From Pyrenophora tritici-repentis (taxonomy: Eukaryota > Ascomycota > Dothideomycetes > Pleosporales > Pleosporaceae), in NCBI RefSeq assembly GCF_003171515.1, contig NC_089390.1, forward strand, positions 7,564,001-7,628,000: a DNA stretch of 64,000 nt. Reading direction: 5' to 3'. Made by a program: the position numbers and the translations under genes. Below the pieces are notes generated by a model. It was not told the origin of the DNA, did not search any database, and was given only the letters and a program-made list of their open reading frames with translations. Positions 6,096 through 54,532 of this stretch are shown here, piece by piece. How positions within the stretch are numbered: position 1 is the stretch's first letter; every line of letters starts with the position of its first letter.

Positions 6096-6599
6096 TTAGC
6101 AGGTCAGTTCAACCCACTTTTGGTCCCTTTTTGTACGCTTAACCAGAATGTGTGCCTTATCTACACAGAAAGCACCTCTTATCCTACAGTCCTCGCAAAC
6201 ATCCCAATCTCCATTAGAGCAATATCGGCAGTGGTAGTGAACGTCGGTTCCACTTATGCGCGAAGTGCACACGTCGCATTCTATAGACCCTGAGTTATCA
6301 CCACAATTAGGCGACGGTACTTGTCCAAGACTAGTCAGTCCACACATTTCAGAAAGTAGTTCTGATACTGCACTATGCCCTTTCTTCGTAGCTATCCAGA
6401 ATGGTGTCCGCCCGAATTTGTCGGTGATTCTAGGGTCACAGTCGTACCAGCTAACAAGGACTTGAACAGCACTAGTCTGGCCGCCGGCCGCAGCCCACCA
6501 GAGTAGATTCCGATCATACGGATCTTGGAACTGTGTAGTACCACCATTTGAGATTAAAAGCTTGAGTACTTCACATTTGCCCTTGTATGCTGCTGCCTG

Positions 6600-32948: not shown

Positions 32949-35381
<2,433 letters not shown>

Positions 35382-36936
35382 ATGGTCGATGTGAGCGAGA
35401 AGAAGCTCCCCACAGAGCTAGAGCGTCGTATGTCTCACAAATTACCCATAATACACCAAGTTCTGACATGATGCTGTTACAGAAACAAGCACACACGAAG
35501 GACAAGTCCAAGATTTTTCGTACCAGCTCGTCGGTCTCTCTATTCAACCCGAGGATGCACGGGACATGTCCGCCATGGAGATCATCTCTGCTGGATGGTG
35601 TATATGTAACAGCTGGGCTGGTATTGCCGCCACCTTTGCCCTCGCCATCGCTCAAGGTGGTCCCACTACCTTGGTCTACGGTCCGATTGTCATACTAGTG
35701 TTGGTTGGATCCTGTGCACTGACGTTGTCGGAACTTGCAAGTGTTTATCCTACAGCTGGTGGACAGTATCATTGGACTAGCATTTTGGCGCCCAAGAGTT
35801 GGAGTAGGGGGTTGGTGAGTCTTGTTGGTTTTGTAGCCGTGGATGTCTCGCTGACTCTTATACAGAGTTATTGTTGTGGCGCCACCAACGTGTTTGCTTG
35901 GATTTCTCTCGCTGCCGGGGTTGCCATTATCGTTCCTCAACAAATTCTCGCTATGGCGGTCTTCTGGAACCCATCATATGTGCCAAAAGCTTGGCATACG
36001 TTCTTGTTATATCAAGCCGCAAACTTGATGACCCTGATATACAACATCTACGTCTTAAAGCGGACGATGTGGATCCATGATGTAGGCTGTACGTGTTTGA
36101 TCTAGTCCGCAATCCGTTCCTCGCTGACTATACAGTTTTCCTGTCTCTTTCTGGTTTCGTAGCACTGTTCATCACCAGTCTCTCTCGTAGCAGCTCGCAC
36201 TTCCAGCCCTCGGAGATGGTGTGGCATACATTCCTGAACAACAGTGGATGGACCGATGGCATCGCATTTTTGACTGGTCTTGTTAATCCGAACTACATGT
36301 ACGCGGGTATAGACGGGGCGATACATTTGGCAGAAGAGTGCAAGAACGCCGCGGTGGTGGTACCTCGCGCACTCATGAGTACGATAACTATCGGCTTTGT
36401 GACGTCACTCATCTTCGCCATTTCCATGATGTACTGTATCAAGGATTTACAGGCTGTTCTTTCAAGTACTACAGGGTAGGACCCAGACGTCTTTCCAATA
36501 TGGAGTTTGCTAATTCTCGTAGTGTGCCAATATTTGAAATTTGGCGACAGAGTACCAGGTCCGATGCGGCTGCCACGGTCTTTCTTACAATATTGGGGAT
36601 GATGGCTCTCTTCGCACTCAATGGATGTCACCAAACTGCCTCTCGTCTGACATGGTCCTTCGGCCGGGACGATGCGATTTTCGGTAGCCGTTGGCTCAAC
36701 AAGATTAGCTCGAAGCAAGAGGTGCCCATCGCCGCCCTGATCTTTAACTTTTGCATCATGGCTCTCATCGGATGCATTTACCTAGCCTCAACATCGGCCT
36801 TCAACGCGTTCATCGGTACAGGTTTGATATTGCAGCATATCACATACGCGTTTCCGGCTTCATTGTTGATGTATCGAAGAAGGTCTACAATGTGGTTGCC
36901 AAAAAGTAGATCTTTCAGGCTCCCATCAGCCTTGGG
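35382..36936 (+). pseudogene. Amino-acid/GABA permease, 5' part (exons 1-4), cut by hAT insertion and inversion
   Basis: Exons 35382-35427, 35483-36088, 36136-36475 and 36523-36936; introns of 55, 47 and 47 bp are GT-AG with CTGAC/GCTAAT branch-like sites. The product starts MVDVSEKKLPTELERQ and shows APC-superfamily permease features: MSAMEIISAGW, ALAIAQGGPTTLVYGP, LSELASVYPTAGGQYHW, AGIDGAIHLAEEC and SRLTWSFGRDDA, as in GABA/choline-type permeases of the plasma membrane. The frame is intact up to PSALG, where hAT copy 1 begins. The rest of exon 4 and exon 5 lie reversed at 50691-50898 and 44820-44857. Joined, the parts total 1602 nt (533 residues), normal for the family. Confidence 0.9.
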
Positions 36937-37059
36937 CAGTGATCGGAATGGTCTGGTCTGACTTGGTCTTGGTCTGGTCTAGACCGCCAAGACTTGGTCT
37001 GGTCTGGCGATTTTTTGAGACCGTGGTCGGACCGGTCTAGATGATCGGACCGGTCCGGC

Positions 37060-37067
37060 TATAAATA
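37060..37067 (+). promoter_or_regulatory. TATA box of the hAT transposase
   Basis: TATAAATA in GC-rich subterminal repeat sequence, about 130 bp before the transposase ATG. The same box occurs mirrored at 53506-53513 in copy 2. Confidence 0.5.
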
Positions 37068-37198
37068 GGTCCACGTGACTAGATCTTAGACTAATCTAGC
37101 CAGAAAATTTAGCACAATATGAGTCATTAAGATCAAGGTAAGTCTTCTACTTACATAGAACAATCAAGTCCTTAACAACCTACTTATATACTATTGTT

Positions 37199-39496
37199 AT
37201 GGAGCCTTCAACACCAACCTCACCGTCCCCATCGAATATTATAAGACTAGATTTAACGTCTCTTACTCCATCTCCTATCCCCACGTCATCACCCACCCCT
37301 ATACTATCACCCACTCCTATTCAATATCACGAATCTCCAGATGAGTTCGTGCAGGGCGGTATCACGTACGTGAAACGTGCAATAATTGCAAGGAAGGATT
37401 TCCGTCAAGGTACATCACACATCTGGAAGTACGGACTCCAATACATTCGAGATAGCGATAAGAAAGAGGTGTATTACTGCCATGAGTGCAGGGTTGGGAA
37501 GAGCAAGCAAGAGTTGTTTGTCATCAATGGCACTTCTAGGATCCGGAATCACCTGGAACAGAAGCACCAGATTGATCCCCAGAGTGGCATCAAGCGAAAG
37601 GGTTCTGTACGGAAGTCTATAATCGACCAGCAAAAGGATGGGGCTGCTTCCAGCATCTTTTTCTGGAAGGAGTCAGTAGAGAAGTTTAAAGAGCTTCTAA
37701 TTCGTTGGATTGTGTACTGCCATATCGCCTTCTTTCAATTAGAGAACCAGTACTTTCGTGAACTACTCCTCTTTTTAAATCCGGCACTACTCAACCACCT
37801 CCCGAAGGCTGCGAAGACTATCCGAAGCTGGGTAATGAATGCATTCATATCGAAGAAGCAACAGCTTAGGGAGGACCTACACCATTCACGGAGTAGGATC
37901 TCTATCTCCTTTGATCTCTGGACTTCACCAAACCCTTACGCTATCCTAGGCGTCGTCGCTATGTGGATTGATACTACCGGCATGCGACGTGTTACCGCTT
38001 TAGGTATGCGACGTATATACGGCGAACATACTGGAGAGAATCTTGGATCGGTGGTCCTTGAATTGCTGGAAGAATACGACATTAGCGGAGATCAGATTGG
38101 ATACTTTATGCTGGATAATGCCTCGGCAAATGATACCGCTGTTGAGTTTATACTCAAGGATCTCTGCCCATGGATGAAGTCAAAACAACGTCGTCATCGC
38201 CGGCTACGTTGCTTGGGCCATGTCATCAACCTCTGTTGCCAGGCGTTCCTTATGGGGCGAAACTGTGAGAAGTATCTTGCGAAGCTGGAGAAGCATCATC
38301 AACGTGGCGACTATACGAAGGTGGAAGAGCTCTGGAAGAAGTTCGGATGTTTGGGTCGTCTTCACAACCTGGTGCGATACATCAGGCTTACTCCACAACG
38401 GCGTGAGGAGTTTGCTACAATTATTATCGGCGGAGATCTTTCGCAATTCGACGGGCTTGAGCTTATCCAGAACAACTCGACCCGCTGGAACTCATGGTTT
38501 TATTCGATTACACGTGCATTAAATGTTCGAGAACGTTTAGAGCTCTTCTCGGCTCGTCATGTACCTGGAAAGGGCTCCGTAGGGATCGCGAACTTTAAGC
38601 TTGATGGACAGCACTGGTTTGAGCTTGAAAAGATTGAACTCGCTCTCAAAGACTTCTATGCTGCAACTTTGCTTTCTGAAGGTAAGAAGACGTCACTTGC
38701 GGACTGGTTTTCAACTTTGGACTGCCTTCTCCGGGAGATAAGCGAGACGAAGGATCACTACCACGACATCCACACTGAGGACGATAACAACTTTACATGG
38801 AAGTACCTTCAAGGCTGCGCTGATGCTGCTTGGTTAAAGTGCGTTGAGTACTATAACAATCAGCAGCTGAATTGGCAAAATCGATTCCCTGAAGATACTG
38901 ACCTTCCACCGGCATATTATGCGGCTCAAATCCTTGATCCATATCGCAAGTGGGGATGGTTCAGGCAAGAGTGGGTTCTTCATGGCGACGAAGAGAAGAA
39001 GAGGTGGTTTGAAAACGCACAATTAGCGGTGAAGCATCTCTGGGAGACAGAGTATAAGGGAAGGTACCCTGTCGAGATGCTGCCACCACCAGCCAGGAAG
39101 GAGAGAGATCCTGACCCAGCATTTGATCGCCAGCGGGAACATAAGCGCATTCGAATAGACGCTCCAGTTTCTACAACTGATTTGTATGAACAATACATCT
39201 CTACTGACCGGCTTCATAACGAAGAGGCAGGTTGCAATGAGGCTATTGCGTACTGGCTATCTCGCTACGACTCCCAACGAGATCTCGCTCGCTTCGCTCT
39301 AGACATGTTTGCGATCTCGCCTATGTCGGATGAATGCGAACGTCTTTTTAGTAGCGCGAAGCTTACTATCGTCGATCGCCGTGGTAGGCTGAAGGCAGAT
39401 ATTATAGAAGCGTGCGAGTGTCTCCGGGCCTGGTATGGAAAGCCCCAAGCTGAGGGGAACAGCGATATCGAGGATAGTGAGAACGAAGACGACTAG
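37199..39496 (+). CDS. hAT transposase, intact
   Basis: 765 residues. The N-terminus is Ser/Thr/Pro-rich, then a BED-type zinc finger (YYCHECRVG near residue 97, RIRNHLEQKH near 121), then the RNase H-like core (SFDLWTSPNPYAILGVVAMW, LDNASANDT, RCLGHVINLCCQAF), and the C-terminal hAT dimerisation region (DMFAISPMSDECERLFSSAKL and ADIIEACECLRAWY). Length and order fit active fungal hAT elements. The start at 37199 is the first Met after the TATA box and leader. It may still be active; copy 2 carries a frameshift. Confidence 0.93.
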   Translation: MEPSTPTSPSPSNIIRLDLTSLTPSPIPTSSPTPILSPTPIQYHESPDEFVQGGITYVKRAIIARKDFRQGTSHIWKYGLQYIRDSDKKEVYYCHECRVGKSKQELFVINGTSRIRNHLEQKHQIDPQSGIKRKGSVRKSIIDQQKDGAASSIFFWKESVEKFKELLIRWIVYCHIAFFQLENQYFRELLLFLNPALLNHLPKAAKTIRSWVMNAFISKKQQLREDLHHSRSRISISFDLWTSPNPYAILGVVAMWIDTTGMRRVTALGMRRIYGEHTGENLGSVVLELLEEYDISGDQIGYFMLDNASANDTAVEFILKDLCPWMKSKQRRHRRLRCLGHVINLCCQAFLMGRNCEKYLAKLEKHHQRGDYTKVEELWKKFGCLGRLHNLVRYIRLTPQRREEFATIIIGGDLSQFDGLELIQNNSTRWNSWFYSITRALNVRERLELFSARHVPGKGSVGIANFKLDGQHWFELEKIELALKDFYAATLLSEGKKTSLADWFSTLDCLLREISETKDHYHDIHTEDDNNFTWKYLQGCADAAWLKCVEYYNNQQLNWQNRFPEDTDLPPAYYAAQILDPYRKWGWFRQEWVLHGDEEKKRWFENAQLAVKHLWETEYKGRYPVEMLPPPARKERDPDPAFDRQREHKRIRIDAPVSTTDLYEQYISTDRLHNEEAGCNEAIAYWLSRYDSQRDLARFALDMFAISPMSDECERLFSSAKLTIVDRRGRLKADIIEACECLRAWYGKPQAEGNSDIEDSENEDD

Positions 39497-39610
39497 ATTG
39501 ACAGTCAGTAGTAAAACACATTTCCTCGGCTTCCTTCTTTGCTTCAGCCTCATTCTTGGCGGTCTTGTTGGTCGGACCGGTCTGGTCGGACCGGTCCTTA
39601 TGTAAGCACC

Positions 39611-39650
39611 TGGTCTGGTCTGGTCTGTACCCTCAGACCAGACCAGACCA
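39611..39650. repeat. Perfect hairpin in hAT subterminal repeats
   Basis: Two 17-bp arms (TGGTCTGGTCTGGTCTG and its complement) around a 6-base loop. Repeated TGGTC units near the tips are probable transposase binding sites, by analogy with other hAT elements. Confidence 0.6.
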
Positions 39651-39675
39651 GACCATTCCGATCACTGCCCCATGA

Positions 39676-40199
39676 TAAGTTCAGGATGATACTCTCAGTG
39701 GATCCAAAGCGCTGTGCAATGATGAGGACAAATCGATCTTAAATTGAGCATGCATAACGCCACATCCACCAATAACCTGGTTTGACTCCGAACAATTGAA
39801 TAAACTTAGGGTATCAGATCTGGCCCTTGATAACGGCACACTGCCCTACCTTGGATCAGAGTCAGAACTGCCCAACGACCGAATAGTTCTAATTTGATTC
39901 GACAGTCGAATGGAAACCAACTTTATCCAAATTTCCAGCCACCACGGCATCCGGAACATGCCCAAATTTTGGTGCCAAGTTGTCAACAGTAAATTCTAAC
40001 CATCATGAACCAGAAACCTAAGTCCTCCTTCGCCCTTTCCCCGCCCTCAAGTCGGATGTCTTGATCAGCACATGTTAATTCAGCAACAATCGTATGTCTC
40101 AGAGGCTGATGAAGTGTCCACCCTTTATACTAAAGCCAATGCAGTCGCCCATCTTCACATGGCAAGGAAACAAGCGCCGTTCCAGATAACTCCTCGAGT
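39676..40199. other. Non-coding or unresolved 5' exons of the C2H2 fragment
   Basis: No clear family. If the inversion is undone, this stretch follows directly on the Ser/Gln-rich gene at 53858-54532. It could then hold linker exons of a single zinc-finger gene. Confidence 0.35.
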
Positions 40200-40670
40200 C
40201 CCTCAGCCGATGCCGTTGCCTCTAAAGTCCGTGATTCGACTCTTCCGCCACCTGCCGCCGCTGATCCTGTCATTGGCCAAGTAACTCTTTCGGGCAAGTT
40301 CAAATGCTTACAAGAAGGATGCCACGACCACGAATCCTTGACCTTCAACCGCCTAGCTGACTTCAAACGTCATTACGAAAATGCTCATTTGGGGACGTCG
40401 ATTGAGTACTTCTGTCCTCGGAACGGCTGTCCCCGCTCAAGAAATCCGGGAGGGGGAAAAAGTAAGGGACGAAGTTTTAAAGGACGCAAGGACAAGATGA
40501 ATGAACATTTGAAGACGGCTCATCGGAAAGATAAGGAGAAACGGAAGAAGTTTGATGAAAGTGAGAGTGAGGTGGGGGATATTGAATTTGATGAGAACCT
40601 AGAAAGTAAAAGACCGAAGGGTAGGCAGAGTGGGCATCGGACATTAGCTACATGTATAATAGATGTCTAA
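40200..40670 (+). pseudogene. C2H2 zinc-finger gene fragment (3' end)
   Basis: A plus-strand frame ending at the stop before 40670 carries two C2H2-type units: KCLQEGCHDHESLTFNR...HYENAH and FCPRNGCPRSRN...HLKTAH, then an acidic and Lys-rich tail. The frame is open leftward to about 40130, then hits a stop without a credible start, so the 5' part is missing or spliced. The left end of the region is a hAT/inversion breakpoint, so it probably belongs with 53858-54532. DNA-binding protein by motif; target unknown. Confidence 0.55.
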
Positions 40671-40824
40671 ACACATGACAAATCATATCTCTAATCAACC
40701 GAATATCTTAGACGAGCGTAAAGAATCTGTATACCGGGCTTCAGTCATAGCTGCCTACGCTGAATGGGTTGGGGGTTGAGCTGCCCCGAGCAATGACCCC
40801 TGCGTCGGCAAAGTGCGGCTGCTA

Positions 40825-42940
40825 GAGTCCCCACCCGGGCTGCGCACGTTTCCGGGCCGCGCACGCCGAACAACATCAACACCACAGCAAACATGAGGTT
40901 ATTAAGCCACACTGAATAGCTGTATATACAAAATAACTCCGGAATTTACTAAAAATGACCTTGCGAACACTTTGTACTATCTAAATTTGGCCGGAATTTT
41001 GATGTTCCGGCCACCACGTGACGTCCGGGCTGGTTGGGCTGGTGTAGCTTCTATGGCTACACCTGAAGCTACACTACTATCTACTCGTTTCTGCCGCTTC
41101 TTCTGCTTAGGTAGAGGTCTTGAAGCTTTGCGCTTACCTTTTTGGGAAGGTTAGATAGCTTTGTCGCTGTTTTCCTGCTGTTTCTGCTGCTCTCTTCGAG
41201 CTGCTTTGTCAGCGTTCTCCTTCTCCTTCTCCATCTTGTCTCTCTCTCTCTTCTCTTGAGCCTCTTGTTTACTCTTTTCACTTAAGAGTTTCTTAGCCTC
41301 TCGGAGCTGTTTAGCATCAGCTTTTCGAGCTTAATCTGCTAGTATTTTGGCGTCTTTTCTGGCTCTTTCGTCCCGAGCTTCTTGGAGCTTTCGAGGAGAG
41401 TAGAAGATAGCATTAGTAGGCCGCTTTTGGTCCCCTTTGAGTGGCAGGCGTCGGCCACGCTTTGTACGCTTATTTTTGGTGTTAAGTGATGTAAGTAGCC
41501 CCTTATTCTTATACTGTAGAAGCTTGTGTTGAGTACTAGCGCGGTGAATTGCTCCTACAAGCTTTGTAACTACTTAATCGTTGTTTCCCTTAATAGCACG
41601 CTCTACTAGACGTTCTGTACGCCACCAATTAGCGGGAGAGAGGTGAGATAGGCTTATATTGTCGGTCTGCAGTGGTGGTGTAGTGTAATCAAACCTCTTA
41701 GTGACTACTGTCTGATCTATCGGCTATATACTAGTGGCTTTAAAAGCAGCAACGATATTAGCTTTAGTGAAGGAGGAGGCATACGCTGGCTTAAACAAGC
41801 TATAGAAATTAGCTTTCACTACTAGGAGAAGCCCCTAGGAGCGTTGTTGTTGCTAAGAGAGTTAAGACGAATAGTAGTGTAAGAGTGGCCCAAACACACC
41901 TATATCAAGAGGCTGAAGAGTATAGGTAGAATGAGATGGAAACACTATCACTATGATCCGATTCTCGATCGCGTAGTCCAAAAACTGCTTAGTAAGATAG
42001 CTCCTATAGCCGTTACAGATGAGTAGCCGCCAAGACTAACGAGCTTTCTCCTTAGTGAATTAATTAAACCGCTTCAGCTATGCTAGACCAAGCTTCTCGT
42101 TGCTCTAGCTAGTAGGACTTGAGCTAACGTTAATCTAGGTGTCCTCTGGGGGTATGTCTTCAACCTAATTGTTGTATAGATCGTACGCCTCACTGCCTAT
42201 AATAATGGACGTTGGCAGCGTCGTCCTATCTGCATAGATCGTTGGGATAATCGTAATCTAGTCTCTGTTGCCGTCTTAGATAGCTGCTCTTGCCCCATCT
42301 TGCACCTAAACTGGCTTACTAAACACTCTCTTTGACTTGTTCTGTACACTAATTAAGAAGCCCTTTTTATCTATATTAAAGGTAAGACGCCTCTCTATCT
42401 TATGCTCCTCTATTTTCTGATGCAGTATATCAAAATATAAGTTGTATTTATTAATAGAATCAGCCTGGTGACGTACGCGGTCGAGGGTGGGCGCCCAGCG
42501 AGAGATGAGACGGTCCTGGTTTCGATGGAGGAAGCGCTCAACCCAGCTCATTGAGACTGGGTTACCACAGATTTCTGAGCCAAAGTTCTGGATCATCTCT
42601 CTCGTAGGAGGTAGTCCTCGTATATGGAGCTCCTCTATATACTGTACAAGCTCTAGCTCTTGTTGTGGTAGCAGAGCTTGCTTCATCTCATCACTGGTGG
42701 TTTTGTCGCGTGAGACGCCGCGCCATCTTCGGGACAGCGCACTGCGACTACAACCAAACTGGTCGGCAACTTTCTGGTATACAAAGTGTTCTCCTGGCTT
42801 TAGCGATTCCAAATATTTAATCGCTTTCTCAATAGCGGTCATATTGGTGGAGTTGCGACGTGTTGAAGTTTGTGGGTGGTCTGGTGTTCTGGCGTTCGGC
42901 GTGCGCGGCCCGGAAACGTGCGCAGCCCGGGTGGGGACTC
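40825..42940 (-). mobile_element. Fot1/pogo DNA transposon B, dead
   Basis: 2116 bp with perfect 47-bp terminal inverted repeats beginning GAGTCCCCACCCGGG and a TA target duplication (40823-40824 and 42941-42942). Similar in size and coding order to pogo A but with a different inverted repeat. Confidence 0.95.
40977..42842 (-). pseudogene. Pogo B transposase, dead by nonsense changes
   Basis: ATG 42842 (MTAIEKAIKYLESLKPGEHF) to TAG 40977-40979 is one frame of 622 codons without indel but with many TAG/TAA codons. HTH (VADQFGCSRSALSRRWRG), CENP-B HTH (GLPPTREMIQNFGSEI) and DDE core are clear. The catalytic boxes are damaged: NIDKKGFLIS (usually NMDEKGF) and CNGYRSY (usually LDGHGSH). The C-terminal Lys/Glu-rich coiled coil remains. 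Damage of this kind is RIP-like. Confidence 0.9.
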
Positions 42941-43089
42941 TACTCCCGGCATCGGCTTCTGACCGTCGACACTTATCAGTGCGCCTCCACCACCCCTCTG
43001 ACTACGATCAAGAAGGTAAAGGGATTGCAGAGCTCATAGATCATGCATCAGCACCAACATGATGGTGAATCTCGATCGGACTGATTATC

Positions 43090-44763
43090 ATGTCACCTCA
43101 ACGCGAGATCCTGGGTGCTTCACCAACAAGAATCGGCGAGAAGTCAACGCCAAAAGACCGAGGTAGATAACCCTTTACTAGCATTCAACTTGCTTCATCA
43201 CTCACAATAGCGAAAGCTGATGTTCCCTAGGATGTTTTCAGTGCTCACGGCGGCGCATAAATTGCGACAAGACTGAGCCATCGTGCGGGAAGTGCATGAA
43301 GAGAGGAATCGAGTGCTCTGGGATCAACCGCATACGATTCGCTGAAGGAGTCGCAAGAAGAGGCAAGTTTAAAGACCTCAAGGTGCCAGATATCAGTTCC
43401 GATGGAGTAGACTGTCTACCAATCACCACGCCATTTCTCATGGTAAGGTGGCAAGACGAAAACAAGAAACATGCAAACCCGAAACGAGATCTACAGAGGC
43501 AGCACAGGAAGCGTGCGTCTGCCAGTAAAACTATTGCAATCGATGGAGGGAGAAATATAAGCCTTTCCCCCATCCCGATGGCTGCTGCCTCTACAAACAC
43601 GCATTTCGACGGCCCGGGTTCTCCGCAGGCTCCAGAAAAGCAAAACATTGAAACGCATGTCGAGGAGGGCATTGAAGAGATTGTACGAGACCAAACAATT
43701 TTTTCGTCATGGTACTCGGGCTACAATAAATTACAGCCCTGGATCGCACCACTGAGCCCGAAAACACGTGAGTTATTTTCTTATTTCTCAGATGTTATCG
43801 CACCAGCCATGGTCATACTTGACACGAGTTCAAATGGTTATCGCGACATCCTCCTACCCATGGCGCTTGAAGACGAGGTGTTGTGTCGCGCTGTGGCTGT
43901 TGTGGCAGCGCAGCATCTCAGCCGCGAGAGGCTTGAATTGCAGGAGGTCGCCGAAGCTGGTCGGACCGCAATCATCTCGCGTCTACGCAGAGACTCATTG
44001 TCTGCCACTGCGGACCGGGTTTTTAACCAATTCACTTGGGCAACTTTGATTGTGCTGCTCGTCGGAGAGACAGTCACTGGTAGCGCTGACTACAGTTTTC
44101 TGATTCAGATGTTGCTATGCTTGTCGGCAAATAGTACGGTCAAAAGCCAGGAATTGCCTGTCAACCGGTTCCTTCAGACTCAAACAAACATGTAGGCTAC
44201 AGCGATGTATGGCGTAACATACCCTTAGTTGACCTTTTCCTAGGTTTGAGATGCTTGGTATCCCGCTACTGAGTGAATCCAACGGCATTGCTACTTTGCA
44301 AGGATTGTCCCGATGGCAAGACTGGCAAATGTACGAGCAGTTTCCCGAGGGCGCGGATAACCGTCGCATCATCCTCAAGATCCGGCAATGCTATTCCGCT
44401 GCCTGCGACATCTACATTCAACGTGCTACGAGCGGGAACAAAGAGTGGCCGATCTCAACGCTCCACCAAAGTGAACTCAACAGATATACAACCACCCACC
44501 ATCTGATGGAGTTACTCTCGCAAATACCGCCAGATATGCCAGGCGCGCACTGTCTTGTATGGCCATGTTTTCTCGGCGGCGCCGAAGCGACAGATCATCA
44601 CCAACGGAACTTCTTCGTCGATTACATGTATCACATCTACGCTCGTACGGGATTTCGCAATATCCTGGTCGCTGTACAAAGTTTGCAAAATTTGTGGGCG
44701 AGCAAAGGTGATGAGCGATGGACCCTATGCTTACCAGAGCATTCCAGCGTGTTGGTGATGTGA
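43090..44763 (+). CDS. Zn2Cys6 transcription factor
   Basis: Exons 43090-43162, 43231-44191 and 44244-44763; introns of 68 and 52 bp are GT-AG, and joining gives 517 residues. The product starts MSPQREILGASP; the zinc cluster follows at the first splice (GCFQCSRRRINCDKTEPSC...C...C, CX2CX6C first half), then a Ser/Pro-rich linker, then a fungal transcription-factor domain of the type-2 class (ELFSYFSDVIAPAMVILD, LCRAVAVVAAQHLSR). Nuclear regulator by family. No defect seen. If the inversion is undone it lies tail-to-tail with the permease, 57 bp between stops, which suggests a pathway regulator; that role is inference. Confidence 0.88.
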
Positions 44764-44819
44764 TTTACGCCTGACAAGACTCTTATGGCTACAAAAAAAG
44801 ATTGGGGCTATTCAGAGAT

Positions 44820-44857
44820 CTACAACGCCAGGCGGGGTCCTCGATAATGCTTCTTTG
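44820..44857 (-). pseudogene. Permease C-terminal end (last 12 codons)
   Basis: On the minus strand, 44857-44820 continues the permease frame after the Copia II insertion: TKKHYRGPRLAL and TAG (44822-44820). The first five bases are the target duplication of Copia II. Aromatic W.FY..K.Y.GPR endings are typical of this permease family. Confidence 0.85.
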
Positions 44858-45100
44858 TGTTGAGAATACAGTCCGTAAGTGACTTGGTGGTATCAAGCGG
44901 AGGAGTAGTCACATGATTGGTGACACGTGCAGGTGGGTCCTAGCGGGGAGCTTGGACGCAGCTGCACGCAACACGGATCTACGAACGTGTGAATAGCTCC
45001 TTAGTCAATACAATACGAGTCGTACCACCACTACCGTTGTGCCTTAGAGAGCGCTCTATTAGGTAGTCATACTACTACTAATAGTGCCAGCTTCTCAATA
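44858..45100 (+). repeat. 5' LTR of Copia II
   Basis: 243 bp, TGTTGAGAATACAG...CTTCTCAATA. Followed directly by GGTTATGAGCCCGG (45101-45114), complementary to the anticodon arm of initiator tRNA-Met. Confidence 0.95.
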
Positions 45101-45176
45101 GGTTATGAGCCCGGTTGCTCGGTGCTCTACGGTTCGGCGACCCACCAGATCAAGGTGATCTGAAGCCACGAAAGTC

Positions 45177-45436
45177 GAGACGAGCTTCTCGCACACGGAA
45201 GACGAGACGAGCTTCTCGCACACGGAAGACGAGACGAGCTTCTCGCATACGAAAGACGAGACGGGCTTCTCGCACACGGAAGACGAGACGAGCTTCTCGC
45301 ATACGAAAGACGAGACGGGCTTCTCGCATACGAAAGACGAGACGGGCTTCTCGCACACGGAAGACGAGACGAGCTTCTCGCATACGAAAGACGAGACGGG
45401 CTTCTCGCACACGGAAGACGAGACGAGCTTCTCACA
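45177..45436 (+). repeat. 27-bp tandem repeats in Copia II leader (about ten units)
   Basis: Units of GAGACGAGCTTCTCGCACAC plus GGAAGAC (or the CATACGAAAGAC variant). Each unit holds a near-palindrome, GAGACGAGCTTCTC. The array lies between primer site and gag start. Because 27 is a multiple of three, long Arg-rich or other repeat peptides open in several frames; I take these as by-products. Confidence 0.9.
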
Positions 45437-45589
45437 CACCGAAAACGAGCATACGGTTCCAGCTAGAGAAAGCTGAAGGGCGCAGACGCCAAAACGTTTA
45501 CAAACCCACTAAACACCCCCTACACCTCGAAACCACACACAACTACGGCATTTGACGCGTCACAGACAGTCAAAAGCACAACCGCGAAG

Positions 45590-48500
45590 ATGGGCAGCGA
45601 CGACAGATACGATAAGGAGCCTAAGATCCCAAAGCTGACGAAGGAGAATCACGAGAAATGGTTCCGCAATAACAAACTGAAGCTGAAGGGAAAGGGAATC
45701 TTCTACACTATCGAAGTCACGAAGCACGCGTACGCCTGGATTGCACGACATGGAGCTGGCACCTCCACATCAACTGCCAACACCTCTCAAGACCCGGCCG
45801 GCACTGTCAACCCTACAGAACAAGCAAGCGTCCTAGGCCTGACAAGCGACTTCGAACGACTGGGAGGTACATGGAACGCTGAAAAGGCAAAGGAATACGA
45901 CAAGGATGAGGCTAAGGCACTGTTCTACATCACAAACAGTCTCCTTGATGATGACGACGCTCTCGCAGACGAGTACGAGACTGCATCTGCCCTCTGGACC
46001 GCACTGAAGGTCAAGTACTCAAAGACTGATCAGTTGACAGCCAACAACATCATGACCAAGCTTCAGAACTTCACCTGGAAAGACGAGAAGGATGTCGACT
46101 ACACGTGGGCAAAGCTAAAAGAATACCGCCGCAAGATTATTGCAGCTAAGCCTGCTGCCAAGGGACTCTACAATGATGAGGCACTTCTCCAGATCATGCT
46201 ACGCGCTCTTCCAGAAAGCTACGGATCAGTAATCGACTATCTCGATGTCCAGACCTCTCTCACGGTTGACGAAAAGATTGCTGCACTCCGCACGAAGGAG
46301 CTGCGACTGAACGACACGGCTGAGCATGCAAATGTAGCATTCCCGAAGTACCGTCACCCGAATGACCATAGAAGCTCGGACTCCTCGATGCGCGACCGCC
46401 CCCGTTCTACATCGCCTGAATTAGGCCCATCCACAGGATGCCTCCATTGTAAGGGAGAACACTGGGCCCGAGACTGCAAATACAAGGGTGAAATTCAGGA
46501 ATTCGGAAGAAAACTTCGAGAGAAAGACGAAAGAGCTGAGAGACGCGCAGCCAAGTCGAAGAGACCTTCTAGAAATGAGAACAAGAAGCGATCTGACAAA
46601 CCTGTCAAGCCTACAGTCAAGACAACCTCGAGGCGCAAGCATGGGTACGCAGCCAAGAATCAGGATTCTGACTCTGGAACGGACAATGGCTCCTCAGGCA
46701 CGGACAGCGAGACCAGCCACGAGTCTACATCCGTGGAAACAGAATGTACGCAACACTGCCATATCTCTGCGGAACAAGCTAGTAAAAGCACACCGGCGAA
46801 CTGGATTGCTGATACTGGTGCTTCATCACACATGACTGACAAGAGAAACCTGTTTAGAGGACCGCTAAAGCGCACGCCGCTCACCACTATCCAGGTTGGG
46901 GAGGATTTCTTCATTCTACCCAACGTGGTACTGTTATGATGAAGGCACTGGATGGGACAACAGGATTACTCCGAAAGGTTCTCTACGTACCTAAGCTCGG
47001 CGTGAATCTAATCGCAGCAAGACGGTTGTGTAGGGAGGGACTTCAAGGCATTTTTGATGACAAGAACATGTATTTTAAGGACAAATCAAGAATCGCAGTA
47101 CAAGCAGCACAGAAGGACGGTCTGTACATCGTAAGCCACATTGCAAGCAAGTACTCAGGAAAGGCGTTTATTGCAGGCAAGACTCGGACCGACAGCAACG
47201 ATCAAAGCACTGCGGAGGAAAGTCAGGAGACACAACCCGAGACACAATCCGACCAGGACCCAGACGAATCCGAAGAAGACAAGTCCACGAAGAAAGATCG
47301 CCGGAACTACAGGCTAATGCACAGACGGTTTGCTCACTACGGCCCAGCAATGCTACGAAACCTGTATAAGGTAACGACAATTGAAAAGATTAAAGTACCC
47401 CCAGCCCACAGGCGCTTCTGTGACCCATGCCTTAAAGGCAAGATGAGGAATAAGATGAACAAAATCCTAGCAGAACACAAAAAGGAGGTACTAGCACTAG
47501 TATCTCTTGACTTAGCTGGACCGTTCCCTACATCACTCCGCGGAAATAACTACCTTATGCAAATAATCTGCAACCACTCCCGAAAGAACTGGTCGATACC
47601 ACTGAAAACCAAGGACCAGGCTATCCTAGAGCTACGCAGATGGAAGGCAAAGGTAGAGCTCCAGACTGGGAAGAAGGTGAAGGCCTGCAGATCAGACAAT
47701 GCGCCAGAACTAAAGCTTGTGATAAACCAGTGGGAAACTGAAGACGGGGTTCAGGCCGACTACACCGTAATTGCGAGCTCGAATCAAAATGGACCAGTGG
47801 AGCGAAGCATCCAGACTGCCGAACACGCAATGAGGGCAATGCTCGATGATGCACAACTTCCTATTGAGTTCTGGGACGAGGCCGCTGAGGCTGACGCCTA
47901 CATCCGCAATAGACTGCCAACAGGACCGCTGGTCGAGGGAAAACCCACGTCTCCAGAGCAGGTATTCTCAGGGAAACGCCCAGGCGTAGACCACGTACGA
48001 GTCTGGGGAGCAAGTGTTACACCTATCTCAATCCAAAGACGCTGCCAGCGAAAGGGAGATTAGACAAGTTAGTGCACCGTGGTCGAGCAGGCGTCTTTAT
48101 GGGATATTCTGAAACTACAGACAAGCAGTTCAAAGTCTACTCTCCTGACCTTGGATATACGCATAGAGTTAGCGTCATCCAAACTAATGAGAAGGTGCCA
48201 GGGGGAAAGATAGACCTGAACTTGAGAGTCAAATCAGGTCCAATGGGCACATCTAATGAGCTCATCCCACGGAAAGCCAGAGGAAGACCAAAGAAGAACC
48301 TAAATCAACTAACTAAACCCGACGCCCTGGATGTTGATATTGAACTGCCGCCATCATCGCCGCCATTGCCGCCGCCATCATCGCCGCCACCATCGCCGCC
48401 ATCACCGCCGCCACCATCGCCGCCTACGCCAGCACCTGCGCACCCATCACCTACCATCACTCCACCCGCGCCAACAGTAGAGGATGAGAGCGAAGAAATG

Positions 48501-50414
48501 GAGGTAGACGAAGTTACCAACCCAGTAGCAGCCGAACCATCAGCTAGGTATCACTTCAGGACTCGGACCCAAAAGAGAAAGCGAGATACATTTGACGACA
48601 TGGAGGATGAACATCGCCAAGCCAAAATTGTCAAAGCTATGCTAGCTGTCCTACGAGAGAGCCGAGCTGACGAAGACCCCACAACTGAAATCCCGACATC
48701 TACGCACCACCATGAAGAGTCTGCACACGAGACGATTGTTAAAGCCTTCTATACGGTGATTGTAAGTGGAAACCTCGATGTCACGGGACGAGCAGAACTT
48801 AGCGGCAAAGCTTTCGCAGCAACAGAAGTTAAAGGCATTAGAATCCCTCAGACCTATAAACAAGCTATAAGCGACCCAGAGAACGCACTGAAGTGGAAAG
48901 AGGCAATTGAGGAAGAGATCAGGACTCTTGTGGGGAACGGAACTTGGGAAGAGCTTATTCCACCCCAGGGTGCAAACCTCGTCACCACAAAATGGGTGTT
49001 TACTGTCAAGCTTAAAGTTGATGGTACGATTGAGAGGTTCAAGGCCAGACTTGTTGCTCGAGGGTTCAGTCAACAACACGGGATTGACTACACCGAGACT
49101 TTCGCCCCGACAGTACGAATGGACACCTTAAGGTTATTCCTTGCTACTGTTGCCAAACAGGGCATGGAATGCTGGCAGTGGGACATCAAGAACGCATTCA
49201 CTGAGTCATACTTAAAAGAAGACATCTACCTCACAACACCAGCTGGGGTAAAAGTTAAGAAAGGCAACGTTCTGAAGGTTTTGAGGAGTCTTTACGGACT
49301 TAAGCAAGCTGGACGAGATTGGAACCTGCTACTTAAGGGGTTCTTAACTGAGATCGGTTTTACACAGAGCCTTGCAGACCCCTGCCTATTCACGCATAAA
49401 GGCAGAGGTATTTCACTACTGGTTTATGTTGACGACATTGCTGCTGCCGCGAAACTCACTTCAGACTTAGCCTGGTTCGACGAAATGCTCCTTACGAGAT
49501 TCAACTCCAAGAACCTGGGGGAGATTCGAAAGATCCTTGGAGTTAGAGTCACCCGCGATAGAGATGACAAAGCTATTTACCTCGATCAACAGCAGTACCT
49601 AGAGACAGTCCTAGATAAGTACGGTATCACCTCAGCAAAGTACAAGTCAAAGAAGATCCCTGCTGCAGACTACGAACACCTAAAGCCTGCTACTCCTGAA
49701 GACGCCAGAATCGACTCCACACAATATTCACAGATTATTGGAAGCTTAATGTACGCAATGGTATTCACGAGACCAGACATTGCCTTTGTACTTGGACGAC
49801 TAGCCCAGTACATGAGAGACCCTGTAGAGATGCACGGGACTGCGTTAAAGAATCTAATGAGATATCTACGGTCAACAGTAAAGCAGAAGATTCGCTTCGG
49901 TCCAGGAGGAGATCACCAAAACGAGTTTGGGATCTACACCGACGCTGACTGGGCAAGCGATAAGACAGACCGGAAGAGCATGTCTGGGGGAGTCGGAATG
50001 TTCTATGGAGGACCATTCTCTTGGGCAGCAAAGAAGCAGAAGTCAGTGGCAACCTCAAGTGCTGAGTCTGAGTACATCTCACAAGCCATGTACGCCAAGC
50101 AGGGACAGTGGGCAGCTCAAGTACTCAGAGATCTCGGCCTGCACCAATACGTCAATGAGAACGGTATCACAGTCCAGATGTACGGTGACAATCAGGGAGC
50201 GATTGCACTGGTGAAGAATCCGCATCTGCACGAACGTTCTAAGCACATTGACATCTGCTACCACTTCATTAGAGACCTAGCTGAGCAGAAGAAGCTCCAG
50301 ATTTCTTATATTCCGACTGACGAGATGGTTGCCGACGGAATGACTAAGCCACTGCAGAGAGTTGCTTTCGAAAGGTTTAAGAAGATGCTGGGAGTTATTG
50401 ATGAAGGGCACTAG
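45590..50414 (+). pseudogene. Copia II gag-pol polyprotein, two single-base frameshifts
   Basis: Gag from ATG 45590 (MGSDDRYDKEPKIPKLTKEN) with knuckle CLHCKGEHWARDC; protease DTGASSHM near 46810. The frame breaks in a G run at 46898-46901, resumes for gag-pre-integrase and integrase (SLDLAGPFPTSLRGN, SDNAPE, QNGPVERSIQTAE), and breaks again in a G run at 48005-48008. The third part (48072-50414) has a Pro/Ser-rich linker, RT (TKWVFTVKLK, FAPTVRMDTLRL, YVDDIAAAAK) and RNase H (YTDADWASDKTDRKSMSGG). In both places exactly one base is missing. Apart from this the element looks complete. Confidence 0.94.
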
Positions 50415-50442
50415 AACAAGTCACGTAAGGCCTGTGGGGGAG

Positions 50443-50685
50443 TGTTGAGAATACAGTCCGTAAGTGACTTGGTGGTATCAAGCGGAGGAGTAGTCACATG
50501 ATTGGTGACACGTGCAGGTGGGTCCTAGCGGGGAGCTTGGACGCAGCTGCACGCAACACGGATCTACGAACGTGTGAATAGCTCCTTAGTCAATACAATA
50601 CGAGTCGTACCACCACTACCGTTGTGCCTTAGAGAGCGCTCTATTAGGTAGTCATACTACTACTAATAGTGCCAGCTTCTCAATA
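50443..50685 (+). repeat. 3' LTR of Copia II
   Basis: 243 bp, identical by eye to 44858-45100, followed by the CTTTG target duplication. Confidence 0.95.
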
Positions 50686-50906
50686 CTTTGTATAGAAAAA
50701 CCAATTCAAGGCTCCAAAAATCCCCATCACTCCAATCACAACACTTGAATAATCTGTTCGGTATTAGATCGACAAGGAGAATAATGAGGTATAGGCAACT
50801 TACTCATGTTGCTTCCCGTGACGGGTATCGCGACTGGGAAGCAGTAGAAAACAAGTACGAAGACGGCAAACAGCACTGTAACGATGTTGACAGCCCAGCC
50901 CAAGGC
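50686..50906 (-). pseudogene. Permease fragment: end of exon 4, intron 4, start of exon 5
   Basis: On the minus strand, GCCTTGGG (the hAT target copy, 50906-50899) leads into GWAVNIVTVLFAVFVLVFYCF and PVAIPVTGSNM, then a 50-bp GTAAGT...CAG intron (50754-50803), then YSSVVIGVMGIFGALNWFFYTK up to the Copia II insertion. This continues exactly the frame left at 36936. The segment is reversed relative to the 5' part. Confidence 0.9.
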
Positions 50907-53636
50907 CAGTGATCGGAATGGTCTGGTCTGGTCTGGTCTGAGGGTACAGACCAGACCAGACCAGGTGCTTACATAAGGACCGGTCCGACCAGACCGGTCC
51001 GACCAACAAGACCGCCAAGAATGAGGCTGAAGCAAAGAAGGAAGCCGAGGAAATGTGTTTTACTACTGACTGTCAATCTAGTCGTCTTCGTTCTCACTAT
51101 CCTCGATATCGCTGTTCCCCTCAGCTTGGGGCTTTCCATACCAGGCCCGGAGACACTCGCACGCTTCTATAATATCTGCCTTCAGCCTACCACGGCGATC
51201 GACGATAGTAAGCTTCGCGCTACTAAAAAGACGTTCGCATTCATCCGACATAGGCGAGATCGCAAACATGTCTAGAGCGAAGCGAGCGAGATCTCGTTGG
51301 GAGTCGTAGCGAGATAGCCAGTACGCAATAGCCTCATTGCAACCTGCCTCTTCGTTATGAAGCCGGTCAGTAGAGATGTATTGTTCATACAAATCAGTTG
51401 TAGAAACTGGAGCGTCTATTCGAATGCGCTTATGTTCCCGCTGGCGATCAAATGCTGGGTCAGGATCTCTCTCCTTCCTGGCTGGTGGTGGCAGCATCTC
51501 GACAGGGTACCTTCCCTTATACTCTGTCTCCCAGAGATGCTTCACCGCTAATTGTGCGTTTTCAAACCACCTCTTCTTCTCTTCGTCGCCATGAAGAACC
51601 CACTCTTGCCTGAACCATCCCCACTTGCGATATGGATCAAGGATTTGAGCCGCATAATATGCCGGTGGAAGGTCAGTATCTTCAGGGAATCGATTTTGCC
51701 AATTCAGCTGCTGATTGTTATAGTACTCAACGCACTTTAACCAAGCAGCATCAGCGCAGCCTTGAAGGTACTTCCATGTAAAGTTGTTATCGTCCTCAGT
51801 GTGGATGTCGTGGTAGTGATCCTTCGTCTCGCTTATCTCCCGGAGAAGGCAGTCCAAAGTTGAAAACCAGTCCGCAAGTGACGTCTTCTTACCTTCAGAA
51901 AGCAAAGTTGCAGCATAGAAGTCTTTGAGAGCGAGTTCAATCTTTTCAAGCTCAAACCAGTGCTGTCCATCAAGCTTAAAGTTCGCGATCCCTACGGAGC
52001 CCTTTCCAGGTACATGACGAGCCGAGAAGAGCTCTAAACGTTCTCGAACATTTAATGCACGTGTAATCGAATAAAACCATGAGTTCCAGCGGTCGAGTTG
52101 TTCTGGATAAGCTCAAGCCCGTCGAATTGCGAAAGATCTCCGCCGATAATAATTGTAGCAAACTCCTCACGCCGTTGTGGAGTAAGCCTGATGTATCGCA
52201 CCAGGTTGTGAAGACGACCCAAACATCCGAACTTCTTCCAGAGCTCTTCCACCTTCGTATAGTCGCCACGTTGATGATGCTTCTCCAGCTTCGCAAGATA
52301 CTTCTCACAGTTTCGCCCCATAAGGAACGCCTGGCAACAGAGGTTGATGACATGGCCCAAGCAACGTAGCCGGCGATGACGACGTTGTTTTGACTTCATC
52401 CATGGGCAGAGATCCTTGAGTATAAACTCAACAGCGGTATCATTTGCCGAGGCATTATCCAGCATAAAGTATCCAATCTGATCTCCGCTAATGTCGTATT
52501 CTTCCAGCAATTCAAGGACCACCGATCCAAGATTCTCTCCAGTATGTTCGCCGTATATACGTCGCATACCTAAAGCGGTAACACGTCGCATGCCGGTAGT
52601 ATCAATCCACATAGCGACGACGCCTAGGATAGCGTAAGGGTTTGGTGAAGTCCAGAGATCAAAGGAGATAGAGATCCTACTCCGTGAATGGTGTAGGTCC
52701 TCCCTAAGCTGTTGCTTCTTCGATATGAATGCATTCATTACCCAGCTTCGGATAGTCTTCGCAGCCTTCGGGAGGTGGTTGAGTAGTGCCGGATTTAAAA
52801 AGAGGAGTAGTTCACGAAAGTACTGGTTCTCTAATTGAAAGAAGGCGATATGGCAGTACACAATCCAACGAATTAGAAGCTCTTTAAACTTCTCTACTGA
52901 CTCCTTCCAGAAAAAGATGCTGGAAGCAGCCCCATCCTTTTGCTGGTCGATTATAGACTTCCGTACAGAACCCTTTCGCTTGATGCCACTCTGGGGATCA
53001 ATCTGGTGCTTCTGTTCCAGGTGATTCCGGATCCTAGAAGTGCCATTGATGACAAACAACTCTTGCTTGCTCTTCCCAACCCTGCACTCATGGCAGTAAT
53101 ACACCTCTTTCTTATCGCTATCTCGAATGTATTGGAGTCCGTACTTCCAGATGTGTGATGTACCTTGACGGAAATCCTTCCTTGCAATTATTGCACGTTT
53201 CACGTACGTGATACCGCCCTGCACGAACTCATCTGGAGATTCGTGATATTGAATAGGAGTGGGTGATAGTATAGGGGTGGGTGATGACGTGGGGATAGGA
53301 GATGGAGTAAGAGACGTTAAATCTAGTCTTATAATATTCGATGGGGACGGTGAGGTTGGTGTTGAAGGCTCCATAACAATAGTATATAAGTAGGTTGTTA
53401 AGGACTTGATTGTTCTATGTAAGTAGAAGACTTACCTTGATCTTAATGACTCATATTGTGCTAAATTTTCTGGCTAGATTAGTCTAAGATCTAGTCACGT
53501 GGACCTATTTATAGCCGGACCGGTCCGATCATCTAGACCGGTCCGACCACGGTCTCAAAAAATCGCCAGACCAGACCAAGTCTTGGCGGTCTAGACCAGA
53601 CCAAGACCAAGTCAGACCAGACCATTCCGATCACTG
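50907..53636 (-). mobile_element. hAT transposon copy 2 (2730 bp)
   Basis: Reverse complement of copy 1; the one difference I found is a missing base in a short C run (52091-52092 here, 38481-38483 in copy 1), which also accounts for the one-base length difference. Flanks are CCCAAGGC (50899-50906) and TCATGGGG (53637-53644), unequal to each other but each paired with a flank of copy 1. Confidence 0.95.
51078..53374 (-). pseudogene. hAT transposase copy 2, one frameshift
   Basis: The BED finger and first half of the core are open from 53374 to about 52090; a missing base there shifts the frame, and the rest (51905-51078, with the dimerisation region) continues in the correct frame after the break. 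Sequence otherwise as in the intact copy 1 product. Confidence 0.92.
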
Positions 53637-53857
53637 TCATGGGGCGATGCTCCAGCAATCCATTTGATGTCTCATCGCGTGAATAGAGTTCTCTGGCACT
53701 GATGGCACGACTTGTATCAACATTGGACGGAATCAAAGTAAAGCAGCAAGAACAAATGGAAAATCTGTACCTTTAGGGGGCCCTGGTTGGTAAGGATTCA
53801 ATCTGTTCATGTGGACTGTGGCCGCTTGGTCGCGCGTTGAGACATTTTGAACAAGAC

Positions 53858-54532
53858 TTACTCATCATGGTATGTAGTTCCGCCCAAATCCCGAACATGG
53901 CCATCATCCCTACTATCACTCCAAGTGATGATATCATTGACGTTGAAGTGGAATGGTTCCATAGCGCTACGATTTGTATATCTGTATCCCACATTTGGCG
54001 GCAGATCCGCTGGGCGACCACTATGAAGCTCTTCGGACTCCAAATGCTGCTGCATTGCACCAGGCTGAAGCGCAGATTGTTGTGTTACCGATGCGTTCGA
54101 GTAGGTGCGTAACATATCCGAAGCTACAGAAGTTAGGTTACCACCGAAAGAACCATATGACGCTCGATGTGGGCTTTGGTAAGAGGGATAGTGACCGGAA
54201 GATGTTGATGAGAATTGTGACCTTGAGCGAGACATGCCGTTGTTCACCGGAAAGTGCGAGAAGTCGTTGTGGCTATGCCGTTGAAACTGGCCAGTGGCAC
54301 AAGGCTGTAGTTCAACCTGATAGTGAGAACTTGACGATTGCGGTGTGCCCAGAGGCGAAGTATGAAACATAGAGTCTTGTCGTTGATCGGTGGCTGGCGA
54401 AAGATGATGGTAACAAAATGGGTGTTGAAAGGCATGTGCGATGGTATTCAAGTCGAGATTGAGACTGAGACTGTGGTCGGCGGAAGAGTGGCGCACAATG
54501 CCACCACTATTCAGATACGTGGAACTTTTCAT
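53858..54532 (-). CDS. Ser/Gln/His-rich hypothetical protein, possibly 5' half of a split zinc-finger gene
   Basis: 225-codon frame (MKSSTYLNSGGIVRHSS...) rich in Ser, Gln, His and Asn, ending GTTYHDE just before a donor-like GATGA/GTAAGT, so the true coding region probably continues after an intron. An acceptor-like CTATTAG lies upstream of the Met, so an earlier exon is also possible. No domain recognised. Low-complexity composition is common in N-terminal parts of fungal transcription factors. Undoing the inversion places the C2H2 fingers of 40200-40670 downstream on the same strand. Confidence 0.45.
   Translation of the reverse strand: MKSSTYLNSGGIVRHSSADHSLSLNLDLNTIAHAFQHPFCYHHLSPATDQRQDSMFHTSPLGTPQSSSSHYQVELQPCATGQFQRHSHNDFSHFPVNNGMSRSRSQFSSTSSGHYPSYQSPHRASYGSFGGNLTSVASDMLRTYSNASVTQQSALQPGAMQQHLESEELHSGRPADLPPNVGYRYTNRSAMEPFHFNVNDIITWSDSRDDGHVRDLGGTTYHDE

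Follow-up and report, generated by a model that had tools for sequence, protein, structure and literature searches.

Swapped target duplications at two inverted hAT copies point to an 11-kb inversion and a split permease gene in Pyrenophora tritici-repentis

In the 64-kb stretch of Pyrenophora tritici-repentis DNA analysed here (the window), an amino-acid permease gene lies in two parts, with a hAT transposon copy at the broken end of each. The upstream part (35367-36936, plus strand) consists of five exons placed by eye and supplies 457 codons up to an 8-bp duplication, and the downstream part (50680-50898, minus strand) supplies 55 codons with one intron, likewise placed by eye, its final codon and stop lying within the LTR of a copia element. 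The first hAT copy (36937-39667, plus strand, 2731 bp) carries a 765-aa open frame at 37199-39496 with the hAT transposase dimerisation domain Dimer_Tnp_hAT (PF05699 in Pfam, E 4.3e-07, with 30.1 bits where the cut-off is 21.4), and the second (50907-53636, minus strand, 2730 bp) has its long frame broken by a 1-bp deletion at element position 1545; in a global alignment this single gap, in a CCC/CC run, is the sole difference between the two copies, with 0 mismatches. Both the terminal inverted repeats (the first 24 bases are the same at either end) and the 8-bp target site duplications, perfect in 48 of the 73 readable copies in the genome, are hAT features. Enclosed between the two copies are an inverted-repeat element at 40823-42942 with 49-nt arms, TA on both sides and copies matching at 96% on C6 and C7, which from its ends is probably Tc1/mariner-like, and a Copia-type LTR retrotransposon at 44858-50685 (plus strand, RVT_2 and Retrotran_gag_2 domains) between CTTTG repeats at 44853-44857 and 50686-50690, and each of these nested elements retains its matching flanks.

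The hAT copies do not. Copy 1 has GCCTTGGG on its left (36929-36936, plus strand), the likely target duplication of the insertion into the permease, and CCCCATGA on its right (39668-39675, plus strand), and copy 2 has CCCAAGGC on its left (50899-50906, minus strand) and TCATGGGG on its right (53637-53644, minus strand). Within either copy the two flanks fail to match as a duplication; across the copies, left matches left (36929-36936 with 50899-50906) and right matches right (39668-39675 with 53637-53644) as reverse complements, so that both the copy coordinates and the swapped flanks are exactly as a first-pass annotation of this DNA had stated. Throughout the 64 kb, CCCCATGA and its complement have no further occurrence and GCCTTGGG has one extra, at 55731.

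The permease provides independent evidence. Read across the swap, its halves rejoin in frame exactly at the duplication of the first target site to give 512 codons, whereas in the present order the frame meets a stop after seven more codons. Against the Pfam profile AA_permease_2, the upstream part alone matches positions 4-378 with 153.1 bits and the tail alone positions 387-426 with 15.2 bits, under the cut-off of 27, whereas the rejoined protein matches positions 4-426 of 427 with 174.1 bits, which bears out the reassembled frame that the annotation had proposed; a comparison of the joined permease with solved structures gave 0 matches. An inverted duplication instead of an inversion was ruled out for 39668-44850, where no second match was found outside the mobile element at 40823-42942 (40 of 115 candidates scored), and the swapped flanks, the permease and the same search, covering 39668-44850, together show neither deletion nor duplication at the breakpoints, only exchanged duplications. 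Because the flanks are swapped, the permease rejoins and 39668-44850 has no other match, the inversion of about 11 kb claimed at first reading is supported: barring an assembly error, 39668-50906 (11,239 bp including flanks) is flipped with respect to the order inferred for the ancestor, and its likely polarity is supported by the permease and the duplications. At the second junction, a putative zinc-finger-like stretch at about 40.3 kb and an open reading frame at 53858-54532 would adjoin in the ancestral order; neither has a Pfam match at E 0.1.

Inverted repeats of 2.7 kb that are almost perfect are known to mislead assemblers, and the unique segment could have been joined in the wrong orientation between them, in which case the real copies would each have a matched duplication and the permease would be split by one hAT alone. 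The CCC/CC difference could then be an uncorrected long-read error, and an 11-kb flip may escape optical maps; however, any read of more than 2.7 kb can cross a whole copy, the window is without any N, and two further pairs of copies, 11 and 53 kb apart, would need flipping as well. If the host is strain M4, the assembly was moreover built from error-corrected PacBio reads at 75X plus optical maps, as described in the available text (PMC5913888). On the whole I consider such an error improbable.

Those further pairs come from a genome-wide survey of the family. Leaving out 12 unpaired ends and 18 of the 91 paired copies with one or both flanks unreadable, there are 73 readable copies, which besides the 48 with perfect duplications comprise 1 with one mismatch and 24 with at least three mismatched positions. 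One of the 24, C7:220576, was set aside by eye, its flanks resembling one 8-mer with a 1-bp shift; the remaining 23 include C6:1243961, which adjoins a truncated hAT copy, and the long elements C2:19694 and C6:1146762. Among these 23 mismatched copies there are three fully reciprocal pairs, the window pair included, against 0 in 20,000 simulations resting solely on the mismatched copies and their match status; the probability that two duplications of the family coincide is about 6e-5, given the flank base composition, in an estimate that had four loci (L005-L008) in the wrong orientation. Read the right way round, these four copies have perfect duplications, and neither the flank counts nor the links between mismatched copies change. 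That unrelated 8-bp flanks are alike by chance, or that two insertions have decayed duplications with no inversion at all, is thus scarcely credible, since both flank pairs in the window are exact and the permease rejoins precisely at the duplication. Two other sharings were not counted as reciprocal pairs: C3:140107 has a flank in common with the intact copy C3:195992, and a CTCCTGCG flank is common to three intact copies. C10:2149070-2152000 is a perfect palindrome, and such palindromes can be sequencing artefacts.

How the segment came to be flipped is a separate matter. The first-pass annotation envisaged two independent insertions followed by homologous recombination, and the first half of this found no support as stated: both window copies share an allele present in only 3 of the 95 genome copies, so, judged by that allele, they are kin, either parent and descendant or offspring of a single element. 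Across the genome, 4 pairs of close neighbours have derived variants in common where 0.52 would be expected by chance, a level that 8 of 2000 shuffles reached, and local daughter copies are therefore plausible. The second half stood as the likeliest route, but not as a unique one, in that transposition involving sister chromatids predicts the same scars. On balance I lean towards crossing-over between parent and daughter hAT copies as the likeliest explanation: a young hAT would have inserted into the permease gene with the duplication GCCTTGGG; closely related to it, and in the simplest case its local daughter, a second copy would have landed 11 kb off in the opposite orientation with the duplication CCCCATGA; and non-allelic homologous recombination between the inverted 2.7-kb copies would then have flipped 39668-50906, swapping the duplications and splitting the permease. 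I infer both this order of events and crossing-over, rather than a one-step aberrant transposition, as the cause. The chimerism expected of recombination is not visible in the window because the copies, identical but for one base, offer no markers for a switch, and for the same reason they cannot display the hybrid nature that the annotation ascribed to both.

A single permease hAT could also have done all of this in one step, if after replication its ends from two sister chromatids were jointly inserted 11 kb away as a hybrid element, leaving the inversion, two identical copies and swapped duplications, with the second target site a new one. I hold this reading to be possible, though on the doubtful side. 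The swapped-flank pattern observed is the pattern derived for that reaction, and the copies differ by one base only; their shared rare allele counts against the crossover, since hybrid-element insertion needs no second insertion. Identical copies with swapped duplications are what it predicts and what is seen, and recombination between parent and daughter is equally compatible with them. Few natural cases of hybrid-element insertion are known. In the other two reciprocal pairs the copies are non-identical and of different lineages, which fits recombination rather than hybrid-element insertion and makes recombination likelier there; that no switch point is visible in these pairs either counts against it. 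According to the Galileo literature, the outcomes of the two processes are strikingly similar, with the copies chimeric under recombination and identical under the sister-chromatid route (PMC2775673).

Transposition with reversed ends, another alternative, was rejected for the window pair, where both flank pairs match rather than one. One shared new duplication at the junctions with unrelated outer flanks is absent there and present in two half-matched close inverted pairs (C4:3080679/3085386 and C5:2416001/2423251), which hold a single duplication in common as in maize alternative transposition as far as it is described in PMC8225341 and thereby lend something to the hybrid-element reading; however, recombination plus deletion could give such pairs too. 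An exact-match search for third partners of these pairs returned 0 for both predicted left junctions and 0 and 1 for the right ones, and the lone match was rejected, as it sits at the left end of C3:2146217. I would only tentatively suggest that the genome of this fungus is being rearranged by its hAT family through transposition using the ends of two copies or of sister chromatids, a kind documented for maize Ac/Ds, alongside ordinary recombination (C1:6813342/6869608, C3:2146217/2160125). If true, the single-step products would be swapped-duplication inversions as in the window, one-duplication inversions (the C4 and C5 pairs) and candidate inverted duplications beside elements (C3:140107/195992, C10:2149070).

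An inversion is often ascribed to transposons only because some lie close to its breakpoints. In this genome, with mismatched flanks at 23 of 73 readable copies and three pairs fully reciprocal, the scars allow single events to be read without a second genome, and one high-copy family serves to tally inversions, half-matched events and inverted duplications alike. Furthermore, such a flip is shown to keep a metabolic gene split, and recombination versus alternative transposition is now testable using strains with published assemblies; for P. tritici-repentis, PMC9594970 names long-read assemblies of BFP, DW5, I-73-1 and D308.

The maize element Ac belongs to the hAT superfamily. Inversions by Ac/fAc, as far as the accessible text describes them, resemble the window in their 8-bp duplications and in the transposon at each breakpoint; they require two directly oriented elements whose ends face each other, and the only new duplication they leave is a single shared one, unlike the window pair, with both flank pairs swapped, so that the C4 and C5 pairs are the closer to maize (PMC8225341). 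The same text cites non-standard transposition of impala as rearranging the Fusarium genome, and the idea of rearrangement by alternative transposition is therefore already known in fungi. No earlier report of swapped hAT duplications at a fungal inversion was found in a literature search that left most subscription papers outside, which does not prove absence. In a related wheat pathogen, Bipolaris sorokiniana WAI2411, the hAT-related ToxhAT is also inverted, with intrachromosomal recombination offered as an alternative by its authors, but in that case it is the element that has turned round between its own terminal repeats, and target duplications are not identifiable, whereas in the window the inverted piece is host DNA lying between two elements, and every duplication can be read (PMC6737239, in the part available). 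For P. tritici-repentis itself, the available text of PMC3538342 reports hAT elements that are high-copy and near-identical like the present ones, mentions three hAT families, describes histone-carrying elements of 5.6 and 2.3 kb, against 2731 bp for the family of the window, and contains the word "inversion" 0 times. The closest parallel in geometry is Galileo in Drosophila buzzatii, where inversions 2j, 2q7 and 2z3 lie between opposite copies of one DNA transposon and target duplications are exchanged too, although these are of 7 rather than 8 bp, Galileo is of the P superfamily rather than hAT, and the 2z3 copies are visibly chimeric and were compared with uninverted chromosomes, whereas the window copies are identical but for one base and come from one genome (PMC2775673, as far as its text was available).

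The two hAT copies of the window, copy 1 (36937-39667, plus strand, 2731 bp) and copy 2 (50907-53636, minus strand, 2730 bp), are opposite in orientation and align with no mismatches and one single-base gap. The element is a hAT transposon, since its inverted ends share 24 identical bases, its 765-aa open frame matches PF05699 and its family leaves 8-bp target duplications, as a genome-wide reading of flanks showed. Within each copy the two 8-bp flanks differ, and between the copies they match as reverse complements; both the letters and this pairing, as recorded in the first-pass annotation, proved exact on re-reading.

An amino-acid permease gene provides evidence for inversion of the intervening segment (39668-50906) that is independent of the flanks. 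Its greater part sits left of copy 1, the upstream part running for 457 codons as far as the duplication GCCTTGGG (spliced by eye), and at present it reads into the hAT element and meets a stop 7 codons further on. The opposite strand just before copy 2 carries the permease on in frame, through one intron, to a stop, giving 512 codons in all. The Pfam AA_permease_2 score is 153.1 bits (profile 4-378) for the upstream part and 174.1 bits (profile 4-426 of 427) for the joined frame; the tail by itself gives 15.2 bits over profile positions 387-426, which falls short of the family threshold of 27. The last codon and stop fall inside a copia LTR, so the gene's original end was different.

Within the flipped segment, the copia element has matched flanks (CTTTG) and an inverted-repeat element has TA at either side, as expected for elements lying wholly inside it. 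An inverted duplication was considered for 39668-44850 and is ruled out for that part, because matches elsewhere, among the 40 of 115 candidates scored, are confined to the inverted-repeat element. Two adjacent ORFs (43296-44195 and 44251-44763) match successive parts of the fungal transcription-factor domain PF11951, and tandem 27-bp repeats lie at 45114-45518, immediately inside the copia 5' LTR. Elsewhere in the window, about 20 tandem 99-bp repeats with one interruption (6494-8939) lie in long minus-strand frames.

The assembly searched comprises 40,899,269 bases in 41 contigs, of which the ten contigs C1-C10 total 39.90 Mb; the window is C1:7564001-7628000. For P. tritici-repentis M4, excerpts of PMC5913888 describe an assembly built with PacBio reads and optical mapping that has 40.9 Mb in 50 ungapped contigs, 39.9 Mb of it assigned to 10 chromosomes. 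Searching for exact matches gave 95 left and 99 right hAT ends, which form 91 paired elements, 45 with a length of 2731 bp, and leave 12 ends unpaired. Both flanks were read for 73 elements: 48 were perfect, one had a one-base difference and 24 had at least three differences, one of the latter being set aside for an apparent 1-bp shift. Among the 23 mismatched copies, with flanks in element orientation, three pairs are fully reciprocal, namely the window copies, C1:6813342/C1:6869608 (53 kb apart) and C3:2146217/C3:2160125 (11 kb apart), and two share a single flank, C4:3080679/3085386 and C5:2416001/2423251; the other 13 have no partner among readable copies. Eight flank links were observed against a simulated mean of 0.05, no reciprocal pair arose in 20,000 simulations, and all five linked pairs lie on single contigs with their copies inverted. 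Three distances to an inverted neighbour were tried: where one lay no more than 20 kb away, 10 of 13 copies were mismatched, compared with 13 of the remaining 60 (Fisher p 0.0003), and the figures were 15 of 29 against 8 of 44 at 60 kb (p 0.004) and 15 of 31 against 8 of 42 at 100 kb (p 0.011), pair members not being independent. The close inverted pairs C1:4350628/4399504 and C3:5147/30729 have perfect flanks on both sides and no exchange.

Other hAT loci are rearranged in different ways. C10:2149070-2152000 has a left hAT end at both termini, and exact reverse complementarity holds for its outer 200 bp per side and for its inner 201 bp; it is either a fold-back hAT within a palindromic inverted duplication or an artefact of sequencing. 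At C3:140107, a mismatched copy, the 95 bp on the left side, compared by eye, exactly match in reverse complement the 95 bp to the right of C3:195992, which retains a perfect duplication; this is an inverted segmental duplication adjoining the mismatched copy. Many copies (e.g. C1:162572, C4:3080679, C3:30729, C1:9899703) contain short inserts, 136, 166 or 170 bp long, which lie at varied sites and have short direct repeats at their borders; these are MITE-like elements nested in hAT. A full copy adjoins a truncated one in opposite orientation at C6:1242613-1246691 and in the same orientation at C9:2162563-2166871.

The first-pass annotation explained the swapped flanks by two independent insertions followed by homologous recombination, and crossing-over between two inverted insertions does leave their duplications swapped; it is not the sole route, however, as hybrid-element insertion gives the same scar. 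In the latter, after replication, a single element's ends on two sister chromatids would insert together nearby, and by derivation the product would be a flipped segment with one copy per side, in which the left flanks of the two copies hold the old duplication and their right flanks the new. Excerpts of PMC2775673 call the two outcomes strikingly similar, with identical copies expected under hybrid-element insertion and chimeric copies under recombination; the two window copies are identical apart from the single-base gap. They are unlikely to be random family members, because both carry a rare A at element position 1270 (A at 3 places and G at 92, by exact 28-mers), the third A being in C3:2160125 of another reciprocal pair. 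Among 57 fully read copies, four pairs of neighbours within 60 kb share derived variants against 0.52 expected, a count reached in 8 of 2000 shuffles. Recombination fits the remaining two reciprocal pairs, whose members are not identical: C1:6813342 has a 688-bp insertion, present also in C4:2080210, its partner C1:6869608 shows a deletion of 25 bp and an insertion of 169 bp, and C3:2146217, of a 2889-bp lineage, has 16 listed variants relative to C3:2160125. No switch point is visible within these copies, so any exchange would need marker-free stretches. Weighing this by judgement rather than calculation, I lean towards recombination for the window inversion and regard hybrid-element insertion as a real but somewhat doubtful contender, given that recombination seems to occur in this family and that daughter copies close to their parents look frequent.

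In the C4 and C5 half-matched pairs, recombination alone would predict a third partner. For the C4 pair neither exact junction was matched in the genome, and for the C5 pair the exact left junction had 0 matches and the right-junction pattern matched exactly only the left end of another element, which is no third partner. Recombination followed by deletion is possible, as is a diverged third partner. Both pairs look like the maize inversions produced by alternative transposition, for which excerpts of PMC8225341 name as diagnostic an 8-bp duplication that matches between the junctions, and they likewise share one such duplication.

No earlier report of a fungal hAT with several duplication swaps per genome was found in the searches made of open-access papers. 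Swapped duplications at transposon-bounded inversions are themselves known from Galileo in Drosophila (excerpts of PMC2775673), as in the window hAT pair, and recombination, as considered here, has been proposed for the ToxhAT inversion of a related fungus (excerpts of PMC6737239).
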